A stretch of DNA of 64,000 nt, taken from contig JAEUSM010000017.1 of assembly GCA_016788785.1 (NCBI GenBank), positions 1 to 64,000 of the forward strand, given 5' to 3'. Both the position numbers and the translations under genes were made by a program. Below are positions 39,909 to 63,574 of this stretch, in pieces. This DNA comes from Candidatus Kapaibacterium sp. GTDB taxonomy: Bacteria; Bacteroidota; Ignavibacteria; Kapaibacteriales; JAEUSM01. Below the pieces are notes generated by a model that saw only the letters and a list, made by a program, of their open reading frames with translations, was not told the DNA's origin and did not search any database. How positions within the stretch are numbered: position 1 is the stretch's first letter; the number at the start of each line of letters is the position of its first letter.

Positions 39909-42900
39909 ATGGTTGTAATTCGGAATATTCTGTTTCTCACCTTACTTTTAATGAGTACATGTACCCTTCAGAGTGTATTTGCACAACGTTGGGAAAAAGT
40001 GACGAATATTCAGCCAGAGTACAATCTTCCCACTGATTATTATTTAGACATTTACTTTCTACCTTCCGATCCATTATTTGGATGGGCATGTGGTTATAGT
40101 GGCAAAACCATTCGAACAACAGATGGTGGAATTTCTTGGATAGGCTCTACCATTCTCAATGGAGCTATGCTTGAATCAATTCATTTTGTTTCACCTTCAA
40201 TTGGATATACAAGTGGCCCAGATGGCATATTCAAATCTATTGATGGTGGAGCTACTTGGACAAGTATAAGCAATGGTTTAGGTGGTGGATTGTGGGGATT
40301 ATATTTCCTTTCAGAAGACTACGGAATTGCAATCGGTGGTGGTTGTGATACAAACCAACGATTTAATATTACTACGAATGGTGGAACTACGTGGTCGACA
40401 TCGCAATATTCCGTACCCAATACAGGTTTAACCGATGCAATTCTATTATCAGATGGTGTTGGATTTGCTTCTTCCAGTGGTAGAATTTGGAAGTCTCTTG
40501 ATAGTGGGAGAACATGGAATATCGCTGCGACAACTGGTGATGTTGGATGGCAAGAAGAAATTACGTTTGTTAATGGGTCAATGGCTGTTCCAACTGCTGG
40601 AGATAATTGCACAGGTGGTACCAATGGTTCGTTACGATTTTCAATTGACTCAGGGCTAACATGGCGAACGTTTAATGTTCCTACGAATATGTTTGGCACA
40701 TTTGTTTTAGATAGCGTTACTGCGTGGGGATGTGGATTGGGCGGTGCAATTTACTACACAGAAAATGCAGGTATTTCTTGGCATTTAAAAAATTGTGGAA
40801 TTGGTACAGCTGATTTAGACGATGTATTTTTTGTGGAAGATAATAATGGATGGGTTGTCGGTAATGGAGTCTTTCGATTAGCCCCTGCCTCAAGAACAAT
40901 TTCTAGAAATCAAATTGATTTTGGAACCATTTGTATTCCCGGTTCAAAATTGGAATTGGTTGGAGCAGTGAATACTTCCTTTAGCGACGTTACTGTTACA
41001 ACAACCTTACTTACCAATGATGATAATGCCTTTTTAATAGTCAATCAAGACCAACAACCCTTTGCAATAGGCAATTGCGAACAACGCTCCATTGGGTTAC
41101 TTTTTCAACCAACTTCTGAGGGTCCAAAAACTTGCACCCTACAAATTGCCTTTTCTTCTGGTGAATCGTATACTGTAACAGCCACTGGAGACGCTACAAC
41201 ACGCAAATCCATTCCCGCTGATACAATAGTGTTTTTTGACACTACACAATGCAACACATTGCAATATGTGAATGCTTTGTGGTATAATACTGGCAATGTA
41301 GAAGAAAATATATCTACAGTTACAAAAGACTCAGGAAGTTCTTCTATTTTATATTTATCTCCTCCAACGTTACGTGTTCCACCAAGAGATTCAATCAACA
41401 TCGTTTATTCTGTGATTCCTTTGGATACTGGTTGGATTTCAACCAGATATAGCTTTAAAGTTGAGCCTTGTAATAATAGTTCTTATCAACATTTATTTGT
41501 CTATGGAAAATCTGCTATTATTACTGCAGAAGATACACTTAAATTTCGAAGCACATGCGATCAGGTTTCCTTGGATTCAATCCTAATAAAAAACACTGGA
41601 AATGACACGCTAATAATAAACAATCCTCGTTTACTTGGTATACAATCAACTGCATTTGAGTTAGTGTCATTTTCTGATGGCACAAATTCATTACTTTCCA
41701 AGAAAATTGCTCCAAACGATAGTATTTATTTGATTATAAAATTCCTTTCTACGTTCACTGGAAATGTGTCGGCACAGTTAGAGTTTTTCACCAATGACTC
41801 AACAAAAGTACGTGGTAATATGGCTATTTACAAAGGAACTTTATTAGGGTTTTGGGGAGCTCCTGATTTAGCCAGTGACAAAAAAAATCTTGATTTTGAC
41901 TCGATTTGTGTTCAATCGTATAAATCGGATACAGTTACCATTTACAACAATGGGGTGGTCTCGTCAGATTTTGTCCCTTTTGATTACGATACAACTAATT
42001 TTATTCTTACGCCAGTATTCGGAAACTTTCCAGTTCTAATTCCTCCTCAAGATTCTGCAAGAATAGTCGTTACTGCTCATCCTCAACAACGAGGATTGAT
42101 TCGTGATACAATTTGGTTAGTATCGAATAATTGCGCTTCTGAAAAATTTATTGTCGCTTCTGTTTTTGGCAAGGAAGGAGTGCTATTGGCGTCTCCATCA
42201 ACAATAACTCATCAAATTATTCAGTCTTCGTTCGATTCTGCTTCTGTTATTATCACAAATGTTGGCAATATACCGGTTGAAGTGAACTCAATATCATTTG
42301 TACCGACAAATCAAAAATTGGAAATTGTATTTCCTAAAAACCCAAAAATTGTCGCACCAAATGATACTTTTTCTATTTTGTACAAATACACTGCAAGTTT
42401 GCGAGAAACTATTCAATCGACAATTGAAATTGTTTCAACATCTGAAAATTGTACACAACCACTGCAAATACCCGTTGTCATTCGTGGTGTTGGGTCTATG
42501 CTTTCTGCATCTGATTCTATTATGAATTTAGAACAACGCTGTTCTACTTCAACTGTTTGCAAACCACTTTCAATTATCAATCAAGGAATTGCACCCGACA
42601 CAATAAAAAGTGTTCAAATCATCTCAAATTCTACAAATCCTGTTACTTTGATAAATCCATTTGTAATTGGTACGCTCATTCGAGCAGAAGAAACACTGTC
42701 GATGTCTGTTTGCTTCACCGCAACACAAGAAGGAGTTCAAAATGATACGATAATCATCAATACTGCTAATTCCGATAAACCTATTATAGTCGTTGTCAAT
42801 GCAAGTTATTATCGAACAAATACAACAATAGAAGATACACTCATTGATTTTGGGATTGTTCATATCTGCGATTCTATTCAAACAATTTCAAAATTGTTGG

Positions 42901-44165
42901 TTAATTCCGGTAGTTTGAATGATACGTTGGATTTTATTCCATCATTATCTGTACTCTCACCTCATTGGATAGCTCCAACTGAATTATTAATTCATGGAAG
43001 TGATTCAGCATTATTTTCGCTTTCGAATAACCCAACAAATTTTGAGTCAGTTTCGGAAGGATTGTATACTGCAACATTTACCTATAGGTCAAGAATATGT
43101 GGTAATCTAATTGTCGTTCAAGTTCAAACTTTGTACCAACATCCAACTATCACAATGTCTAAAAACACCATAGATTTTGTGACACTGTGGATGGATGAAG
43201 TTCGAACGGATTCGATTCTACTTACAAATACATCAACAAATCCTATTACCATTCTTCAAGGTATTTTTGATTATACAGAATTCGGTTTTCGTACGAATCC
43301 TTTAGACTTTCCAATTACAATTTTGCCAGATTCTTCGTACCAATTGAAAGTCGTTTTTACCGCAACTGTCGAAGGTACTTCAACAGCTCGTTTACAACTC
43401 TCGTTACAATCGGTTTGTACAGATTCACTGTTTGTAGATGTTACTGCAACTGTTCCATTTGAAGAATACTCCGCAGCATTTGGATTGGAAGACAAAACTG
43501 GTATGCCCGGTGAAGAAATTATTTTTCCACTTTTTTTGTACGATAGTTTATCTAAAGCAAAAATTGATTCGATTGATTTTGCAATTTCATTTGATGAGCG
43601 TTTACTTTCTCCAAAAGGAATTTTACTTCCTTGGACATTTCCACCAAGATTTATTCCTTATGTGTTTCAAAATGATATACTCACTTTTTCTGTGCCACAG
43701 AATGAAACCTTCGATTTGGGTCGTCAACCAATGCAACTTGCAAGGATTGTTACAAGAGCGTTATTGAACAAACCAGATAGAACACCATTGAAGTTTCTAT
43801 CTATAACCCCAAGAACAACAAAGAGAGTAAATACCAGTTTCAAAAATGGGTCATTTCTAATTAATGTTTGTGGTATTAGAGGTGGGTTAGATTATTTGCC
43901 AACAGCTACGGTTGCAATACCTCATCCGATTGTGACAAGTCCATCTCTTGATATTTCACTATTATCGACAGGTGAACAATTTGTAGATATTGAGCTCTAT
44001 TCTCTACTCGGTGTGCCACTAACTACAGTGCGAAGACAATTAACTCCAAATCAGGAGCACGAAGTCAGTATGCCGTTAGGACAGAATGGGAACGGAACAT
44101 ATTTTCTTGTTGTGAAAACTCAATATGGTGAAACATTCCAAAAGCAAATCATCTTACAACGATAA
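39909..44165 (+). CDS. large T9SS cargo: BNR repeats, choice-of-anchor D domains, cohesin-like domain
   Basis: A 1,418-residue surface or secreted protein. After a signal peptide (ending SVFAQ), residues ~40-320 hold BNR/Ycf48-like beta-propeller repeats (GKTIRTTDGGISW, KSIDGGATWTSI, SIDSGLTWRTF, GWVVGNGVF). Residues ~330-1230 are a chain of about eight choice-of-anchor D/ASPM-type sandwiches with the recurring phrases VDFGTICI-like, TGN and PNDS. Residues ~1235-1330 resemble a cohesin-like fold (GMPGEEIIFPLFLYD). The last ~75 residues are a T9SS type A sorting domain (VDIELYSLLGVPL, GTYFLVVKTQYGETFQKQI). Probably structural or adhesive, with no enzyme motif. Confidence 0.88.
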   Translation: MVVIRNILFLTLLLMSTCTLQSVFAQRWEKVTNIQPEYNLPTDYYLDIYFLPSDPLFGWACGYSGKTIRTTDGGISWIGSTILNGAMLESIHFVSPSIGYTSGPDGIFKSIDGGATWTSISNGLGGGLWGLYFLSEDYGIAIGGGCDTNQRFNITTNGGTTWSTSQYSVPNTGLTDAILLSDGVGFASSSGRIWKSLDSGRTWNIAATTGDVGWQEEITFVNGSMAVPTAGDNCTGGTNGSLRFSIDSGLTWRTFNVPTNMFGTFVLDSVTAWGCGLGGAIYYTENAGISWHLKNCGIGTADLDDVFFVEDNNGWVVGNGVFRLAPASRTISRNQIDFGTICIPGSKLELVGAVNTSFSDVTVTTTLLTNDDNAFLIVNQDQQPFAIGNCEQRSIGLLFQPTSEGPKTCTLQIAFSSGESYTVTATGDATTRKSIPADTIVFFDTTQCNTLQYVNALWYNTGNVEENISTVTKDSGSSSILYLSPPTLRVPPRDSINIVYSVIPLDTGWISTRYSFKVEPCNNSSYQHLFVYGKSAIITAEDTLKFRSTCDQVSLDSILIKNTGNDTLIINNPRLLGIQSTAFELVSFSDGTNSLLSKKIAPNDSIYLIIKFLSTFTGNVSAQLEFFTNDSTKVRGNMAIYKGTLLGFWGAPDLASDKKNLDFDSICVQSYKSDTVTIYNNGVVSSDFVPFDYDTTNFILTPVFGNFPVLIPPQDSARIVVTAHPQQRGLIRDTIWLVSNNCASEKFIVASVFGKEGVLLASPSTITHQIIQSSFDSASVIITNVGNIPVEVNSISFVPTNQKLEIVFPKNPKIVAPNDTFSILYKYTASLRETIQSTIEIVSTSENCTQPLQIPVVIRGVGSMLSASDSIMNLEQRCSTSTVCKPLSIINQGIAPDTIKSVQIISNSTNPVTLINPFVIGTLIRAEETLSMSVCFTATQEGVQNDTIIINTANSDKPIIVVVNASYYRTNTTIEDTLIDFGIVHICDSIQTISKLLVNSGSLNDTLDFIPSLSVLSPHWIAPTELLIHGSDSALFSLSNNPTNFESVSEGLYTATFTYRSRICGNLIVVQVQTLYQHPTITMSKNTIDFVTLWMDEVRTDSILLTNTSTNPITILQGIFDYTEFGFRTNPLDFPITILPDSSYQLKVVFTATVEGTSTARLQLSLQSVCTDSLFVDVTATVPFEEYSAAFGLEDKTGMPGEEIIFPLFLYDSLSKAKIDSIDFAISFDERLLSPKGILLPWTFPPRFIPYVFQNDILTFSVPQNETFDLGRQPMQLARIVTRALLNKPDRTPLKFLSITPRTTKRVNTSFKNGSFLINVCGIRGGLDYLPTATVAIPHPIVTSPSLDISLLSTGEQFVDIELYSLLGVPLTTVRRQLTPNQEHEVSMPLGQNGNGTYFLVVKTQYGETFQKQIILQR

Positions 44166-54529: not shown

Positions 54530-55912
54530 ATGAGTTCGCCAGTCTATCAATCACTCAATCCATACACCGAAGAAATATTTCAACAATACTCTGTAACTTC
54601 ACCGATTGAAATTCACGGTTTCCTTCAAACATTGTCGCATTCTCAACAGCAGTGGAGCACAGTTTTGCTCGATGAAAAACAATCATTATTAGGAAATCTC
54701 AAGACAGCACTTTTAGAAAAAAAAGAAACACTTGCGGAACTCATATCTTTGGAAATGGGTAAACCACTCAATCAATCTCGAGCTGAAATTGAAAAGTGTA
54801 CAACCCTTTGTGAATATTATACCACGATTCAACCGTCAGTTTTTGAAGAAGAACATACCATTGATGATACAAAAACTATTATTTCATATAAACCAATTGG
54901 AGTAATTTTACTCATAATGCCATGGAATTTCCCGCTTTGGCAAGTCTTACGTTGTGCAATTCCAGCTCTTTTGATGGGAAATACTATCTTACTCAAACAT
55001 GCTCCCAATGTACCAAGATGTTCACTCTTTATCGAAAAACTGTTTACTGAAGTAATATCTAAAAGTTCAATTGATTTACCAATTTTTAAAAGCTGTTTTG
55101 TATCGAATGAAACAGTCGCCGAATTGATTTCCTCACCAATAATTCAAGGAGTTTCCTTAACTGGAAGCACTAATGCAGGAAAAATTGTGGCTAGTCTTTG
55201 TGGTAAAGCTGTAAAAAAATGTGTTCTTGAACTTGGTGGGTCTGATGCATATATCCTTCTTGAAGATGCAGAGTTAACAAGAGCAATTGATGCATGTGTT
55301 ACATCGAGACTATTGAATACTGGTCAAAGTTGCATTAGTGCAAAACGGTTCATCGTTCACAAACGATTAGTTAGTGCATTTATAGAAGGTATGAAATCAG
55401 CTTTTGAAAAAAAAACGTATGGTGACCCTATGAAATCTTTTGATCTTGGCACCATTGCTCGGAAAGATTTGCGAGATGGCTTACATTCACAAGTACAACG
55501 AGCAATAACAAGCGGTGCTGAATGTATTCTTGGAGGTTTTATTCCTGTGGAAAAAGGATTTTTTTACCCACCAACTATTTTGACAAATGTTTCTCCTTCA
55601 ACTTCTTCGTTCGATGAAGAGTTATTTGGTCCAGTAGCACAAATTATCGAAGTAGAAAATGACAAACATGCACTTGAATTAGCAAACAATTCTTCCTTTG
55701 GATTAGGAGGAGCTATTTTCTCAAGAGACGAAGAATATGCTCAAAATTTAGCTTTGAACTATTTTCATACAGGTTCAATAGCAATCAATGACTTTCTACG
55801 CTCCGATGCACGATTACCATTTGGTGGAATAAAAGAATCCGGATTTGGAAGAGAAATGGGAATCCAAGGATTACGAGAATTTAGCAATTGTAAAACAATT
55901 CGTTTTGCATAA
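54530..55912 (+). CDS. aldehyde dehydrogenase, succinate-semialdehyde dehydrogenase-like
   Basis: A 460-residue NAD(P)-dependent dehydrogenase. PIGVILLIMPWNFPLWQVLR, catalytic Glu in LELGGSDAYIL, nucleophile Cys in NTGQSCISAKRFIVH, and SSFGLGGAIFSRD, LPFGGIKESGFGREMG. The PWNFP/ISAKR wording and 460-residue length match the short Sad/YneI-type succinate-semialdehyde dehydrogenases. Substrate is inferred, not proven. Convergent with the CtlX-like gene (11 bases between stops). Confidence 0.88.
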   Translation: MSSPVYQSLNPYTEEIFQQYSVTSPIEIHGFLQTLSHSQQQWSTVLLDEKQSLLGNLKTALLEKKETLAELISLEMGKPLNQSRAEIEKCTTLCEYYTTIQPSVFEEEHTIDDTKTIISYKPIGVILLIMPWNFPLWQVLRCAIPALLMGNTILLKHAPNVPRCSLFIEKLFTEVISKSSIDLPIFKSCFVSNETVAELISSPIIQGVSLTGSTNAGKIVASLCGKAVKKCVLELGGSDAYILLEDAELTRAIDACVTSRLLNTGQSCISAKRFIVHKRLVSAFIEGMKSAFEKKTYGDPMKSFDLGTIARKDLRDGLHSQVQRAITSGAECILGGFIPVEKGFFYPPTILTNVSPSTSSFDEELFGPVAQIIEVENDKHALELANNSSFGLGGAIFSRDEEYAQNLALNYFHTGSIAINDFLRSDARLPFGGIKESGFGREMGIQGLREFSNCKTIRFA

Positions 55913-55923
55913 ATAAAATTACA

Positions 55924-56835
55924 TTAAAACAATTCGGCGACCATACATCTTGCACTTCCGCCACCAAAAGTTTCAATAGTTGAGACTGGAATCATTTGGA
56001 GTTCTCCATCTTTGCGTAATTGTTGCTTTTGATCATCTGTTAACGTTCCAAACGCTCTGGCTGAGCATATCCAAATAGCAGACCCCTTCGAAGTTTGGAC
56101 TAATAAAATATTCGCTGCAAAATTCTCTAATTGCTCAAGTGAAATTTCCACTATTTCTTTTCCGGTAGTGTGTAATGATGAACAAACAAGAGACCGTTCT
56201 TCTTCATTTGCAAAAATATCCGGGCATATAACAGCAGTTGATACCCCCATTGACATTAAAACATTGGAATGATAAATTGCCACACCACTTGGATGTTTTG
56301 TGGAAAATGTGATTGTTTTATACCCTGTAATTTTCTCCCATTCTTTGATTACTTCCATATTTGTACGTTCGGAAAGTGCAGCATAAGCAATTTTATTTTT
56401 CCTATCCAAAATAAGACTTCCGGTACCTTCTAAATACAATCCTTGTTCTTCATAACTACTCAAATCAATCACTTCTTCATAATTGCCTTGTTCAATTAAA
56501 AATTTTTTTAGTTCATCTCTTCGCTCTAAACGTCTATTTTTTGCCATCATAGGGTAAAAAATAATCGTTCGTTTTTCAGAAATTTCTGTATGTGTTGAAA
56601 ACCAATTATTCGGGAAAATAGAATCAGGAGTTATAATATCCTTTGCATCTTGAACAACTACTACTTCAACTCCTATATAATGCAATAATTCATGAGATAA
56701 CTTTGTCTCTTTTTGAACAGTTCTCAACAAATCACCTTCATATGTTTCTGAGGATTGAAAGGTATTCGAAGAGGCAGTTTCCTCATTGGAACGAAAATGC
56801 AATGGTGAAACCATCAAAATTTTGTTTGTTAACAT
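55924..56835 (-). CDS. CtlX-like amidinohydrolase (arginine-deiminase superfamily)
   Basis: A 303-residue cytosolic member of the guanidine-modifying superfamily. FPNNWFSTHTEI, the acidic LYLEGTGSLILDR, His in GVAIYHSNVLMSMG, and nucleophile Cys297 in FGGGSARCMVAELF at the extreme C-terminus, the order and spacing of the CtlX (citrulline utilisation hydrolase)/dimethylarginine hydrolase group. It probably hydrolyses citrulline, arginine or a methylated derivative. It lies 77 bases downstream of a secreted deiminase gene on the same strand. Confidence 0.85.
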   Translation of the reverse strand: MLTNKILMVSPLHFRSNEETASSNTFQSSETYEGDLLRTVQKETKLSHELLHYIGVEVVVVQDAKDIITPDSIFPNNWFSTHTEISEKRTIIFYPMMAKNRRLERRDELKKFLIEQGNYEEVIDLSSYEEQGLYLEGTGSLILDRKNKIAYAALSERTNMEVIKEWEKITGYKTITFSTKHPSGVAIYHSNVLMSMGVSTAVICPDIFANEEERSLVCSSLHTTGKEIVEISLEQLENFAANILLVQTSKGSAIWICSARAFGTLTDDQKQQLRKDGELQMIPVSTIETFGGGSARCMVAELF

Positions 56836-56912
56836 AGGGTAAAGAAGGTTAAAAATAAAGAAGACACACTATTTTGGAAATTACAATGTGTCTTCTAATT
56901 TAAACGAAGCAA

Positions 56913-59087
56913 TTATTTAAGAATTGAAATTGGAATAAATGAACGTTTTTCATTGGATACAATTCGAACATAATACATCCCTGATGCCAAAGTATTGGCT
57001 TGAATAGGTATAAAATGCGTTCCTTTCTCAATAGACCCATTGAATATAGTCATAACGATATTCCCAAGATTATCAATCACATCAACAGTGGTTTTTATTG
57101 CTTGATTGGCTGTAATTTCGATTGTTGCGTTTGAACTAACTGGATTTGGATATACTGCAAATGATGCGATGTTATCAAATGATTCAGGATTTTTAACAGA
57201 AGTTATATTTCCAATTTTGACAGTATAAAACCCATCTGGAGCAGACATAGGTTTATTTATTGATTTACCATTGTTGCTTTCAGCATGAAGGTAATATTCT
57301 ATTTCATCATTTTCAGCAAATTGTTGTAAAGCTAACTGACCAGAAAAATTAGAAGAACCCTCATTGGAAAGCGAAATCTCTTGCCATTGAGCTTCTCCTT
57401 TTTTTCTCCAAACAAAATTCGCAACTTTGATACCGCTTCTATTCGTGATTCGTGAAGTGATGTCGTAGCTTTGCATTGTCACAGGGAAAGTACCTCTAAC
57501 AGGAGCAAATTCTATGCGAAGTGGATTTTCCGCTGGAATCTGCATGGTTACACAGTGCAAAGCTCCACCACCAGGTGATAAGATTCGTGAATCTATCGGA
57601 ACAATTTTATACCCTGGCATTGCACGTTTGTAATATTCAACGGCTTCAGCATCTAAAGTTTTATTTCCTGAGGTAGTATTTGAATATGTAGGAAAAATTA
57701 AGGTCTTGTTGACTTGAATCCCATTGATATAGTTCCTAGCATCTTGCGTATAATCAGTCCCACGAGTTGAATACGATCCATCATCATTTGTAGGTAGTGG
57801 AATTGTTGGAAATTCATAGTTTCTGTCATAAGGACCATTCATCGTACCTAAAACACGGATATTGTTGCGAACTCTATTATAATCTGGAAATTGCTGATTG
57901 TTGTAGACTTCAGGGAAATCCGTTGTCATAAATCGTTCTTCATCTAATTGACGAAGATACAAATCCAAATGACCAGTTCCTCCATCATGTTGTAATCGTT
58001 GTAAGATATTTACTGAATCTACCCCAAAAAGTCTTCGCATGGTATCTCGTATTTGAGTAGCATTCAGTGGTGATCTAAATCTATATATAGGGTTCGTATT
58101 TGGACGTAGATTGAATACCTGTCCAGTATTTTCAGCATTTGATTCAATGATTGCACTACTAGTTAGTATTCTATTATTTCCGTCCGTAAAGAAGTTTCCA
58201 CCTTCATTCATCAAAGAAGTTTGGAACACCTTATATCCTAATTGTGGCAGTAAATAGACTCCCAACGAATCATCATTTGCTCTGCCTGGATAGTAAGTAA
58301 AATCCATAAATGCTAGACTGTCTTGGGCACCGTAATAAAATCCTAAAGGAGTAAAATCTCTCGCCCAAAAGGCATTGCCACCTTGTGGAATGACAAAAAA
58401 TCTATAATTTGTCAATGGTTTGTTTTGAGACAAACAAAAGTTTTTAATATCTATTGAATCCTGTGCCGAATGAATGCGAATCCATACTGGAACTTCTTGT
58501 TGAATGGCATCTGCTAATTGAGCCCATAGAGAAGAATAGGGACTATTAGGGAAAATGTCTGGAGTATATGAAGCAATTTCTACATGCAATGAAGCAAGTA
58601 CGCTATCTTCTTTAGATGGATTTTGTTGTAGAAATTGAATAATTCTTGCATATTCTTCATTAGAAAGCATTTTGAAACCAACATTATTCGAAATTGGATC
58701 TACTTCATTTCCATTTCCATCATAAGCATACATAGGCCAAGCAAGAAAGATAGCTTGCACTTCCTCTGTTTCTGCTGGAGTTCTGATGTTTGATGGTAAT
58801 GGTTCATTCAGTGTTGTTTCAGCTTCTTTTGCTGAAAAAAGAAGCGTTTTTTTGAATGAATGTAATCCAATTTCTATTGGATTTGCTTTTGGTATACGAC
58901 TATGAAATTTGCGAAAGTCGTTAGTATCATATGTTGAAATTCGTTCTAAAAATATTTTTTTAGCTCGATGTTTTTGCTCAATCGTAACAGTTGATTGTGC
59001 AGTAAGAGTATTGGTGGTTACAGTAAGCATAAGTGTTAATAACAAACCTACCAAATAGCTTTTCCGGTTTAATTCTACATTTTTCAT
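56913..59087 (-). CDS. secreted peptidylarginine deiminase-like protein with T9SS sorting domain
   Basis: A 724-residue exported protein: signal peptide (1-31, ending LTAQ), a PAD_porph/agmatine-deiminase fold (~95-520), an Ig-like domain (~525-635) and a T9SS type A tail (FAVYPNPVSSNATIEI, GMYYVRIVSNEKRSFIPI). Catalytic residues are in place: Asp244 (FWARDFTPLGF), His373 and Asp375 (GGTGHLDLYLRQ) and Cys512 (GGALHCVTMQ). The order deiminase-Ig-sorting tail is that of Porphyromonas gingivalis PPAD, which citrullinates C-terminal arginines. Peptide versus agmatine specificity cannot be set from sequence. A -7-like TACATTTG (59139-59132) lies upstream on the minus strand. Confidence 0.87.
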   Translation of the reverse strand: MKNVELNRKSYLVGLLLTLMLTVTTNTLTAQSTVTIEQKHRAKKIFLERISTYDTNDFRKFHSRIPKANPIEIGLHSFKKTLLFSAKEAETTLNEPLPSNIRTPAETEEVQAIFLAWPMYAYDGNGNEVDPISNNVGFKMLSNEEYARIIQFLQQNPSKEDSVLASLHVEIASYTPDIFPNSPYSSLWAQLADAIQQEVPVWIRIHSAQDSIDIKNFCLSQNKPLTNYRFFVIPQGGNAFWARDFTPLGFYYGAQDSLAFMDFTYYPGRANDDSLGVYLLPQLGYKVFQTSLMNEGGNFFTDGNNRILTSSAIIESNAENTGQVFNLRPNTNPIYRFRSPLNATQIRDTMRRLFGVDSVNILQRLQHDGGTGHLDLYLRQLDEERFMTTDFPEVYNNQQFPDYNRVRNNIRVLGTMNGPYDRNYEFPTIPLPTNDDGSYSTRGTDYTQDARNYINGIQVNKTLIFPTYSNTTSGNKTLDAEAVEYYKRAMPGYKIVPIDSRILSPGGGALHCVTMQIPAENPLRIEFAPVRGTFPVTMQSYDITSRITNRSGIKVANFVWRKKGEAQWQEISLSNEGSSNFSGQLALQQFAENDEIEYYLHAESNNGKSINKPMSAPDGFYTVKIGNITSVKNPESFDNIASFAVYPNPVSSNATIEITANQAIKTTVDVIDNLGNIVMTIFNGSIEKGTHFIPIQANTLASGMYYVRIVSNEKRSFIPISILK

Positions 59088-59176: not shown

Positions 59177-61669
59177 TTAAAACGTAGCATTTCCAAATGT
59201 TATGATAAATCTTGGTGAGTTTACTTGTGAAAGTCGCACCGTAACGTCTGTGCGTAAAAATAGAAGGAACTTATTAATACCCAATCCAACTTCATAATAC
59301 CATCTATCCGAAGTTTGTGAAGTTGTTTTTCGTAATTCCGGTACTTCCATCATTGACAATGCACCAAAATCAGTCCATGCAGCATTGAACGTAGCAATAA
59401 ATTCTAAACCAAAGGATGCAATATTGGGAATACGTAAAATTCCAGGAACAATCTCTCCCAAATTGTGCTCTACATTGAAGGCGAAAATTCTATCTCCATA
59501 AAATTCTTTTACCCCCATGACTCTATACACATCTCCAATGGGAGCAACATTCGAAGCTACTGTTTCCAAGCTGTAGTAGTTTTGTGGTAATATAGTCCCC
59601 CGTGAAAAAACAGAATGGAAGGTTATGGTTGTTTCCCACAATGGTAACGTTCGAAATTTCCAAAAAAACGAACCTTCATATTGTTGAAAATCAACTGCGG
59701 AAGCTAAATATTCAGGAGAAGAAAACTTACCCTTTAATTGCATTCCAATACGAGAGAATCTTCTACGAGAATTATAGTTAAGATTAAGTTCATATCCTAC
59801 CATTCGTTGAGTGACATCTGCAATTTCTGGATTATCCCTAAAGAGGGCATTGCGATTGAAAAAAGAAAATTGCGTATTTGTTCGAGCAGTCCTATGATCT
59901 TCGTTTTTATAATACAGCTTCAAAGAATATGGATGCTCAAAATATTCTGGTCGAATAAACTGAAGCTGTCCAGCTCCGAATTGTACAAATAATTCCATAC
60001 CACGGTTATAATAATAATCTCCGTAGTCATTTTTAGCAAACAAAGCAACCGTTGATATAAGTGCAGTTTGCACCCTATATGGCTCATCTCTTCTTTGCAA
60101 AATATCATATACTGAAGCTCCAATTTGGATTTGTCTTTTTGCATCAGGAAAAAAAACTGCTGTAGTTTGTCCATAATAACGATTATCAGAAAACCCATAA
60201 CCAATTTTTCCTAGTACTTCAAGATTATCACCAATTTGATGAATCAAACCTAATCCGAGATACAATCCGTGAACCCTATTGAATTTGAAAATATCTGTTC
60301 TATCAGTAAACGGTCTTCTACCAGTTCTTGCAATTACTCGATTTATAGGTCGAAGGTATTCTTCAAAGAACCCTATTGGTACTAATGAATCTGGATACTC
60401 AATATTTATTCGTATTTGGTTGTATGCAAGTTCTTCTTCCGAGCGTAAAGGCAATTGAATATAGTCATTCCAATAAGTAGAATCAAAAATATCTGCAGTT
60501 TCAGTCGATTCCACTTTCCGATTTGAAAACACATCATCATTGAATGGTTTATTTATTTCATAATCGAATGCGACAGTTTCTATGTTAATATCACCACGTG
60601 GTGCAATTATCCAAAAAATCTTTGCCGATGCAGATGATGTAATACTCAATGCATGTGGAAGAGTATAAGAAAAATTCTGTTGATTGAAATCACTAAAAGT
60701 TTGTTTCACCTTCAAAGATGCACTAAATGGCAATGAAACAGCCTCATTTGGCACTGCTTCAAACCTCAATGGTGAATTTGTTTTATCATCAAGATATAAA
60801 ACTCCCGTGAAAAGCCGTCTTTGTCCAGTTTTCGGAGTTACCACAATTTTATTGACTATTGTCGAATCGTTTTCTACAAACTGACCCTCCAATTCAAAAT
60901 TGTAAAAGTCCAATGCTTTTGGATTGAATGGAGTAAAAATCTCTTCTCCTAAAAAATCTATAATATCATCGTAGATATTCAAATTTGTTCCAAAAGCAAC
61001 AACATTATTCTGTTGTGGAATGTTTGCTGTTTGTCTTCGTTGGTAAATTTCATTATAAAAATTATCCGATTTTTTGAAATACCCTTTTGAAAATGACTCA
61101 AAAATTGCCAAAATTGTTGTGTCATTTGTTTTGTTTGAGTAACCAGAAGTTAGTGAATCCAAACTTGCGACAAACTTAGTATACAACCTATAGTTATATC
61201 GTTCCAATCGTATGGACTGTTCTTGTTTTTTTGCTATTGCTCTCCTCATAATACGTATGCCCATCGGCTCTGCATCAACCATAACTTCAGCAATAGAAAG
61301 ACTTTTTTGTGAAAGTGCAATCGTTAGTGATGTCGTATCATTTTCTATTGTTACTTCTTGTTCATAGGTAGTATACCCAACCATTGATGCAGTGAGTATG
61401 TAACGTCCTTGTGAAAGTTTTAAAGCAAATGAGCCATTTTTACTGGAAACTGCTCCAGTTTTTGTATTCTTTATTCGTAATGTTACAAATTGCAGTGGTT
61501 GATTTGATGAAGAATCAACTACAATTCCTTTTAAAACCGACAATGTATCTTTTTTGCTGACTGCCGAAACATTTTGAACACAAAACACGATAAGTCCAAC
61601 AACAATTATTAACATTGTTGGTACTTGTTTTGAAATAATAAACTGTACTTTTTTTTCTATTTCCGTCAT
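59177..61669 (-). CDS. outer-membrane DUF5686/carboxypeptidase-regulatory-like protein
   Basis: An 830-residue outer-membrane protein. The ATG at 61669 gives a signal segment (MLIIVVGLIVFCVQNVSAVS). Next is a CarboxypepD_reg-like domain (SVLKGIVVDSSSNQPLQFVT, GAVSSKNGSFALKLS, VGYTTYEQEV), then the DUF5686 region (IMRRAIAKKQEQSIRLERYN onward) and a long beta-barrel ending RFIITFGNATF. The family is common in Bacteroidota, lacks a TonB plug and has unknown cargo. The longer frame to 61819 would run into the divergent cytochrome gene and is rejected. Confidence 0.85.
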   Translation of the reverse strand: MTEIEKKVQFIISKQVPTMLIIVVGLIVFCVQNVSAVSKKDTLSVLKGIVVDSSSNQPLQFVTLRIKNTKTGAVSSKNGSFALKLSQGRYILTASMVGYTTYEQEVTIENDTTSLTIALSQKSLSIAEVMVDAEPMGIRIMRRAIAKKQEQSIRLERYNYRLYTKFVASLDSLTSGYSNKTNDTTILAIFESFSKGYFKKSDNFYNEIYQRRQTANIPQQNNVVAFGTNLNIYDDIIDFLGEEIFTPFNPKALDFYNFELEGQFVENDSTIVNKIVVTPKTGQRRLFTGVLYLDDKTNSPLRFEAVPNEAVSLPFSASLKVKQTFSDFNQQNFSYTLPHALSITSSASAKIFWIIAPRGDINIETVAFDYEINKPFNDDVFSNRKVESTETADIFDSTYWNDYIQLPLRSEEELAYNQIRINIEYPDSLVPIGFFEEYLRPINRVIARTGRRPFTDRTDIFKFNRVHGLYLGLGLIHQIGDNLEVLGKIGYGFSDNRYYGQTTAVFFPDAKRQIQIGASVYDILQRRDEPYRVQTALISTVALFAKNDYGDYYYNRGMELFVQFGAGQLQFIRPEYFEHPYSLKLYYKNEDHRTARTNTQFSFFNRNALFRDNPEIADVTQRMVGYELNLNYNSRRRFSRIGMQLKGKFSSPEYLASAVDFQQYEGSFFWKFRTLPLWETTITFHSVFSRGTILPQNYYSLETVASNVAPIGDVYRVMGVKEFYGDRIFAFNVEHNLGEIVPGILRIPNIASFGLEFIATFNAAWTDFGALSMMEVPELRKTTSQTSDRWYYEVGLGINKFLLFLRTDVTVRLSQVNSPRFIITFGNATF

Positions 61670-61736
61670 CGATAGAGATGAAATTCTATTTTTTTCGTAA
61701 ATTGTCTCAAACTTTTGTTTATCTATCGTATAAGTT

Positions 61737-62921
61737 ATGAAAATAGTTCTTTTTCTCATTAGTTTTTTGGTTGCAATACCACTTCTCTCATTACCACAAT
61801 ACCAATTACTTACTGGCAATAGATGTGGAAATTGTCATGTCAACCATCAAGGTGGTGGACAAAGAAATGAACTTGGATATTATTCTATGGCAGATGTTTC
61901 TATTTTGAAACCTGACTTCATTATGAAAAATTTACCTGAGTCAAATTCACCATTTTCCAATACTATGATAGGCTTGGATTTACGTGCTCAAATGGCTCGT
62001 GGTGTTGCTGATGATGCAGAACGCCGAGTATTCCCAATGCAATTTGCAGCATATGCTTCTCACCAAGCTACTGATTGGCTAACCTTGGAGGGTACATTTT
62101 CGTTTTATAATAAGGAAAGAAGATACCCTGGACAACAAATGTTTTTTGGTTCTGCTTTGATTCAACCAAACTTATCATTCCCCCAACTTAGAGTAGGATA
62201 TTTCCAACCTTCCATTGGGGTTCGATTTGACGACCATACAAATTTTGCTCGTTTAGTTCCTAACAATCGTGTGTTTAATACACCTATCATTGCTCCGAAT
62301 TATGCCGAATTAGGTGCGGAAATGACCTACGATGTTGTCAATTATAAAGCAAAAGGATTTGTAACGCTTACTGGAGGTGCATTCTCTACTCGGTCTTTAA
62401 ATGATGTTACGATGTTTTCTGAAAATGGTCAATTACTTCCGATTGTAAAAAATGACGATATTTCCTACATTGGTAGAATTCAATTCTCAGAAAATCATTT
62501 GATAACAGATATAACAAATTCAACGCTTGGTGCGTCTTATTTCACAAATGCAGGTGTTACTATGACAAATGTATTTGGTGGAGTTGGAGTGAGCGATGCT
62601 TTTTCGTTAATGGCTGAGTACTCAATGAAAGAAGCAAATTCGTTTTTTTCCATTCAATCAACGAGTATTTCTGCTATGTATCAAGCTACCGAAGGAGTGT
62701 TTTTTGAGCTAAGAGCCGAAGAATCCTCTGGAACTATCCAACAAGGTAGCGAAAAAGTAACCAATACCAATAAACAGTTAGTGCTTGGTTCGCAGTTGTT
62801 CATTCTCCCTGGAATTGTTCTCAGACCTGAATATCGTATTCTCGATACTGAACAAAGTCCCAGACTATTAGAACAATATACTTCATCAAGATTCTTTGTT
62901 CAATTGTACGCCTTTTTCTAA
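61737..62921 (+). CDS. monoheme cytochrome-outer-membrane barrel fusion
   Basis: A 394-residue protein. The signal peptide (1-18) is followed at once by a c-type heme motif, TGNRCGNCHVNHQGGG (Cys30, Cys33, His34) and QRNELGYY. The remaining ~340 residues look like an outer-membrane beta-barrel: alternating strands such as LRVGYFQPSIGVRF, AELGAEMTYDV, GRIQFSENHL, SLMAEYSMKEA, with terminal FFVQLYAFF. The layout, one heme at the mouth of a barrel of ~400 residues, parallels Cyc2-type iron oxidases. The CHVN-GGGxRNxxGYY wording, however, is a different family that I know only as uncharacterised. Electron transfer across the outer membrane is inference. Confidence 0.78.
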   Translation: MKIVLFLISFLVAIPLLSLPQYQLLTGNRCGNCHVNHQGGGQRNELGYYSMADVSILKPDFIMKNLPESNSPFSNTMIGLDLRAQMARGVADDAERRVFPMQFAAYASHQATDWLTLEGTFSFYNKERRYPGQQMFFGSALIQPNLSFPQLRVGYFQPSIGVRFDDHTNFARLVPNNRVFNTPIIAPNYAELGAEMTYDVVNYKAKGFVTLTGGAFSTRSLNDVTMFSENGQLLPIVKNDDISYIGRIQFSENHLITDITNSTLGASYFTNAGVTMTNVFGGVGVSDAFSLMAEYSMKEANSFFSIQSTSISAMYQATEGVFFELRAEESSGTIQQGSEKVTNTNKQLVLGSQLFILPGIVLRPEYRILDTEQSPRLLEQYTSSRFFVQLYAFF

Positions 62922-62941: not shown

Positions 62942-63574
62942 ATGTCAATATCAAAATTTTTCGCTTTAGCGATTATCGGTTTATTTGTTGTTACTTCATC
63001 AAGTTTTGCTGGTGGTAAAAACTTTTCATTAAACAACAATGTTGGTAAAAATCAAATCAAATTTGACTCTGAAGCACCTGTTGAAACTATTAACGGTGTT
63101 GTGAACACAGTAAATGGAAATTTTACTATGGATATGTCTAACTTCGAAGCTACTACTGGCACTATCACTCTTAACATTGCTGATATGAAAACAGGTGTAG
63201 AAAAAAGAGATGAACACATGCGTGGTGCTGATTGGTTGAACGCTGACAAAAATCCTCAGATTAAATATCAAATCACAAAATTAACTGGTTTGAAAACAAG
63301 TTCTGAAAATGGTAAATTTACTACAAAAGGTACCGTAGAAGGTAATTTTATGTTAAATGGAGTTTCGAAGTATTTAAAAGGTACAGTGAACATCAACTAC
63401 ATTCAAGAGAACGCAGAGACAAAAAAACGTGCGTCTGGCGATATTGTCAATATTCAAGCGAAAATTGATGTTCCTTTGGCTGATTTTGGTATCAAAGGTA
63501 AATCTGGTGTTTTAGGAAATAAAGTTGCGAACGTTGTTAAGATTTCTGCAGTTCTTTTTGCAAATTCCAACTAA
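62942..63574 (+). CDS. YceI-family protein
   Basis: A 210-residue exported protein with signal peptide (MSISKFFALAIIGLFVVTS, cut after SFAG) and a lipocalin-like YceI domain: IKFDSEAPVETINGVVN, GTITLNIADMKTGVEKRDEHM, NPQIKYQITK, VEGNFMLNGVSKYLKG. YceI proteins bind amphiphilic or isoprenoid molecules in the periplasm. AGGAG lies upstream of the ATG. It follows the cytochrome-barrel gene after 20 bases and is probably cotranscribed. Confidence 0.92.
   Translation: MSISKFFALAIIGLFVVTSSSFAGGKNFSLNNNVGKNQIKFDSEAPVETINGVVNTVNGNFTMDMSNFEATTGTITLNIADMKTGVEKRDEHMRGADWLNADKNPQIKYQITKLTGLKTSSENGKFTTKGTVEGNFMLNGVSKYLKGTVNINYIQENAETKKRASGDIVNIQAKIDVPLADFGIKGKSGVLGNKVANVVKISAVLFANSN

Follow-up and report, generated by a model that had tools for sequence, protein, structure and literature searches.

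The deiminase of Porphyromonas gingivalis, PPAD, is still described as the sole prokaryotic peptidylarginine deiminase (PMC6367333), and a wider spread of PPAD-type genes has already been noted (PMC8826395). In PPAD, Arg152 holds the substrate carboxylate by a double salt bridge, and the R152A variant is inactive. Arg154 has a further contact to the preceding peptide carbonyl, and about 30% of the activity remains in R154A. Tyr233, whose place is taken by serine in PAD4, would collide with any C-terminal extension of the substrate (PMC4487231, PMC4893104). The window analysed here, a stretch of 64,000 nucleotides from contig JAEUSM010000017.1 of the free-living bacterium Candidatus Kapaibacterium sp., contained a gene for a deiminase of the PAD_porph family, followed on the same strand by a gene for a CtlX-type putative citrulline hydrolase. 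An aldehyde dehydrogenase gene was convergent with the latter, and all three genes were found where an earlier note on this DNA had placed them (Table 1). There was strong support for the deiminase being neither PPAD nor an agmatine deiminase, but a member of a third PAD_porph clade tagged for the type IX secretion system (T9SS). This window clade is a large, uncharacterised sister group to PPAD. The observation itself is well-founded, and a role of the deiminase in arginine salvage is plausible.

The deiminase matched PAD_porph in Pfam with an E-value of 9.2e-36 (124 bits, cut-off 25) and was the sole PF04371 protein of the host genome, which comprised 2.97 Mb on 18 contigs and was 99.45% complete. 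Its N-terminus was signal-peptide-like, with TAQ as the last residues, as read by eye from the sequence. The C-terminus matched Por_Secre_tail (E 4e-10), and export by the T9SS is predicted. A profile search of the PDB matched PPAD with an E-value of 1e-57. The AlphaFold2 model, based on a 48-sequence alignment, had a mean pLDDT of 85.9, and PPAD entries ranked first in Foldseek with TM-scores by target of 0.83-0.86. VIA-align superposed the model on PPAD over residues 92-626, comprising catalytic and Ig-like domains (413 residues, Z 35.8). The agmatine-deiminase-like structure 1xkn aligned with the catalytic domain over 333 residues at Z 36.9, and the Z-scores to agmatine deiminases (36-37) were nearly tied with that to PPAD. 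The Ig and sorting domains of the earlier note were thus recovered by model and profile, respectively.

Residues were compared in an alignment of 41 window-clade members, 18 PPAD-type proteins (group B), 17 agmatine-deiminase-type proteins and PPAD. Asp244, His373, Asp375 and Cys512 aligned with Asp130, His236, Asp238 and Cys351 of PPAD, in the order that had been proposed from the sequence, and Asn455 and Trp241 aligned with Asn297 and Trp127. All six positions were invariant in the 41 window-clade members. Invariant columns recurred in a further alignment of the family, and the deiminase should have the Cys-His-Asn/Asp-Asp chemistry of guanidino-modifying enzymes (GME). Of the two carboxylate-binding arginines, one was retained and the other replaced, as previously suggested. 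Arg269 corresponded to Arg154, which was invariant in the window clade (41/41) and in group B. Agmatine deiminases had Trp, His, Tyr, Phe or Cys at this position, never Arg. Arg152 was replaced by Pro267. Its equivalent was present in 18/18 group B proteins and in 0/41 window-clade members, and a motif scan of 92 window-clade sequences detected arginine at this position only in L068. Replacement of Tyr233 by Gly370 had previously been missed; the position was glycine in 41/41 window-clade members. Thr180 and Cys239 were replaced by Glu295 and Leu376 in the deiminase. Judged by these residues, the window clade has kept the chemistry, but the clamp responsible for the exo-activity of PPAD is altered. 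Since Arg152 is lost and Tyr233 is a glycine, the strict specificity of PPAD for C-terminal arginine cannot be assumed, and the substrate range of the deiminase should differ from it. The loss of both residues could open the active site and, together with the invariant peptide-binding Arg154 equivalent, would suit an exported endo-peptidylarginine deiminase with a PAD4-like role, modifying surface proteins of the cell or its neighbours without nutritional purpose. This explanation is improbable, as the opening of the cleft is read from single residues by alignment, the substrate is hypothetical and the recurrent neighbours of the gene in relatives are amino-acid-catabolic genes.

Among 76 catalytic domains placed in a tree, the 42 rows of the window clade grouped with an SH-aLRT support of 99, and the agmatine deiminases (15 rows) formed their own clade with a support of 100. 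PPAD paired with L195, close to group B, which belongs to the Ignavibacteria line and kept both arginines. An identity as agmatine deiminase was rejected based on a score of 50 bits against the TIGR03380 cut-off of 381.8, the separate clade and Arg269. The common fold, the tied VIA Z-scores and the resemblance of Glu295 and the GTGHxD loop to agmatine deiminase rather than to PPAD would fit an exported deiminase of agmatine or another small guanidine, but this reading conflicts with the same score, clade and residue, would leave the downstream CtlX without its presumed substrate, and is very doubtful. The proposal of a secreted PPAD-like enzyme outside the oral pathogens was upheld, and tree and residues set it clearly apart from the agmatine deiminases.

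The window clade was present in 22 of 149 relatives and the PPAD-type group in four further ones. A scan of GTDB species genomes, with patterns that can catch the PPAD-type group too, yielded at least 550 confirmed stretches; the best 80 belonged to rumen and gut Bacteroidales, Chitinophagales, Cytophagales, Flavobacteriales and Kapabacteria. The window clade is widespread in Bacteroidota and Kapabacteria, and both PAD_porph domain and T9SS tail were present in 48/48 aligned members. A search of the open-access literature, outside which most subscription journals lie, yielded no paper on this clade. Group B (L024-L027, L178-L194) comprised T9SS-type PAD_porph proteins with both carboxylate-binding arginines (YNRPRPxDD) and without Tyr233. 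By these residues, a true PPAD-like enzyme outside Porphyromonas is more likely to occur among them than in the window clade.

Enzymes of citrulline and arginine metabolism were searched family by family in the host genome. Argininosuccinate synthase was not found there, with 14/14 control genomes positive, and neither were arginine deiminase (PF02274), ornithine cyclodeaminase (OCD) or ornithine carbamoyltransferase, PyrB being the only carbamoyltransferase. The host therefore cannot convert citrulline to arginine by the usual route. With neither argininosuccinate synthase nor ornithine carbamoyltransferase found in a 99% complete genome, arginine auxotrophy is probable, and an arginase is present. 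Agmatinase, formimidoylglutamase, an ArgD-family transaminase and, above its cut-off, pyrroline-5-carboxylate (P5C) dehydrogenase were also present. CtlX passed the NF046062 equivalog cut-off with 341 against 334 bits, in line with its earlier label as CtlX-like. Cys297 and the FPNN and H-x-N signature agreed with the CtlX of PMC9007349, and Asn replaced both guanidine-binding Asp residues (FPNN, and HSN where the founding CtlX has HTN). Among the enzymes recognisable in the host genome, only the deiminase would make citrulline and only CtlX would consume it.

The favoured explanation, which is held to be an even call, is that the deiminase is exported by the T9SS and acts on extracellular arginine, and that the citrulline feeds CtlX and subsequently the formation of ornithine and glutamate. 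Outside the cell, the deiminase would convert arginine in peptides, and perhaps free arginine, to citrulline and ammonia. Citrulline or citrullyl peptides would be taken up, and peptidases would then free citrulline. CtlX would form ornithine from it, and the presumed flux would reach glutamate via the transaminase and P5C dehydrogenase. The direct basis comprised the domains, the conserved catalytic residues, the separate clade, the adjacency to CtlX, the lack of other citrulline enzymes, and the ArgD-type transaminase with P5C dehydrogenase. The lack of other citrulline enzymes is the best argument for the coupling; it holds only if CtlX is a citrullinase, and citrulline could also come from the environment.

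Several points weigh against this explanation. CtlX was called only a putative citrullinase by its discoverers, and citrulline hydrolysis is unproven for the founding members (PMC9007349). The deiminase lacks Arg152, whose loss in R152A inactivates PPAD (PMC4487231), so its activity is not guaranteed. With an arginase in the genome, arginine can bypass the deiminase route. A probable terminator stands between the deiminase and CtlX genes: the hairpin in the gap had an RNA fold of -18 kcal/mol and a z of -5.7 and was equally stable in 0/200 shuffles. The promoter and terminator scan, which performed at chance level, did not list this hairpin, its loop being longer than the scan permits. Hairpin and T-rich tract make co-transcription, and with it an operon, unlikely. 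Deiminase and CtlX were linked in 2 of about 96 loci, namely the window and G012, and CtlX linkage as a general rule was rejected. CtlX was absent from 15 of the 22 genomes carrying a window-clade deiminase, and many deiminase loci had unrelated neighbours. Conversely, 17 relatives had CtlX without a window-clade deiminase, and co-occurrence over the 149 relatives had a p-value of 0.053 with kinship ignored.

The terminator, the rare linkage, the co-occurrence value and the 17 relatives with CtlX only would also be expected if the deiminase were secreted and worked alone, in ammonia release, alkalinisation or peptide processing, with a chance or local adjacency to a CtlX of general citrulline and ornithine metabolism. 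This is rather unlikely given that the host genome search gave no other citrulline producer or consumer and that the deiminase is tied to other arginine-type enzymes in relatives. Furthermore, G012, which is from another family and has a 40% identical deiminase, also carries both genes within 2.3 kb; CtlX lies 2.2 kb off in divergent orientation, separated by a TPR/guanylate-cyclase gene. That deimination outside the cell is coupled to citrulline use inside it, as first proposed, thus stayed plausible through the enzyme content of the host, but neither an operon nor a conserved CtlX linkage was supported.

Other neighbours recurred in the relatives. In 11 loci, with deiminases 38-86% identical, the deiminase gene had directly beside it a divergent gene for a GME-superfamily enzyme of 300 aa. 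Its best models were arginine dihydrolase and dimethylargininase, below both cut-offs. It kept an HLD motif where CtlX has HSN or HTN and should therefore act on guanidines, not citrulline. P5C dehydrogenase, above cut-off, was encoded 50-130 bp upstream of the deiminase in six loci. The 3-keto-5-aminohexanoate cleavage enzyme (KCE) of lysine fermentation, also above cut-off, was encoded directly upstream in 14 loci of gut and rumen Bacteroidales, with gaps of 2-122 bp in L104, L111, L117, L122, L126, L128, L131-L135 and L137. Neighbour cluster 11 was left out of the counts, as its frames were apparently antisense to the KCE gene. The neighbourhood pattern leaned towards amino-acid catabolism with no fixed partner. 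As a tentative generalisation, the third PAD_porph clade, exported by the T9SS in hundreds of Bacteroidota from the environment and the gut, would deiminate peptidyl arginine without the Arg152/Tyr233 clamp, possibly at internal arginines as well. It would feed an arginine salvage that ends in CtlX in the window; elsewhere, the end point would be an arginine-dihydrolase-like enzyme or P5C dehydrogenase. In family f7 of the same order, a cytosolic agmatine deiminase and CtlX occurred together in nine genomes (G006, G015, G023, G030, G036, G042, G047, G052 and G056; p = 0.0005, kinship ignored). There, CtlX might act on N-carbamoylputrescine.

The closest PDB entries to the aldehyde dehydrogenase were of Sad (8qms, 8qmq; E 3e-114), but its score of 427 bits was far below the cut-off of 855 for NF010575, the Sad-type succinate-semialdehyde dehydrogenase (SSADH). 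No SSADH-type homologue adjoined the deiminase in any relative surveyed; the aldehyde dehydrogenase neighbours elsewhere were P5C dehydrogenases of another family. Membership of the window dehydrogenase in the proposed system is unsupported and was dropped. The DUF5686 gene upstream was beside the deiminase in none of the relatives surveyed. Genes for a CxxCH predicted outer-membrane protein and a YceI-family protein lay near the deiminase in the window (61737-62921, 62942-63574), in L033 (5600-8075) and in L035 (597-2867), and were the only synteny common to the window, G012 and G034. A 1418-aa protein encoded at positions 39909-44165 of the window combined several ASH/HYDIN-type Ig domains with a YCF48/BNR-like part.

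Table 1. Features of the deiminase locus, with positions in the window.
Feature	Position	Strand	Basis or remark
Aldehyde dehydrogenase, Sad/SSADH-like, 460 aa	54530..55912	+	Aldedh E 1.8e-116; convergent with CtlX, 11 bp gap
CtlX-type putative citrulline hydrolase, 303 aa, cytosolic	55924..56835	-	NF046062; motifs FPNN, HSN, Cys297
Deiminase-CtlX gap, 77 bp, 14-bp stem and T-rich tract	56836..56912	-	Probable intrinsic terminator of deiminase transcript
Deiminase, PAD_porph family, 724 aa	56913..59087	-	Pfam and NCBIfam, PDB profile match, AlphaFold2 model
Deiminase parts (residues): signal peptide ~1-31; N-terminal extension; pentein catalytic domain ~95-522; Ig-like ~524-626; T9SS type A sorting domain 645-715
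Deiminase catalytic and substrate-binding residues	57552..58367	-	Trp241, Asp244, Pro267, Arg269, Glu295, Gly370, His373, Asp375, Asn455, Cys512
DUF5686 / CarboxypepD_reg_2 predicted outer-membrane protein	59177..61819	-	Pfam; 89 bp upstream of deiminase, same strand

Two T9SS-tagged groups outside Porphyromonas can now be told apart by residues of known function, one keeping both arginines and the other having lost Arg152. If these enzymes are active, citrullination of proteins or peptides would be widespread among Bacteroidota of the environment and the gut, and it may originally have served nutrition and not virulence. The window offers a simple test case, as the deiminase and CtlX have no other recognisable citrulline enzymes beside them in the host genome.

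Compared with known systems, the dehydrogenase has Sad-type SSADH (8qms) as its best PDB match, but differs in its low score, its convergent orientation and the lack of a recurring deiminase link. The deiminase shares with the agmatine deiminase AguA (PDB 3h7k, 2jer) the catalytic fold and residues, including Glu295. AguA, however, is a cytosolic single-domain protein of about 350 aa, whereas the deiminase is multidomain and predicted to be secreted, carries Arg269 where agmatine deiminases have an aromatic or His residue, belongs to a separate clade and scores far below TIGR03380. With PPAD (PDB 4ytg, 5ak7) it shares Arg154, Trp127 and the Asp-His-Asp-Asn-Cys set of the PAD_porph domain, and in both proteins an Ig-like and a T9SS sorting domain come after the catalytic domain. 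It differs from PPAD in the replacements of Arg152, Tyr233, Thr180 and Cys239, a longer N-terminal part and its own clade. The window CtlX resembles described CtlX (NF046062; PMC9007349) in passing the equivalog cut-off and in the Asn that replaces the guanidine-binding Asp. Unlike described CtlX, it is not beside ocd or aruFG, in a genome without OCD, and instead adjoins the gene of a deiminase predicted to be exported.

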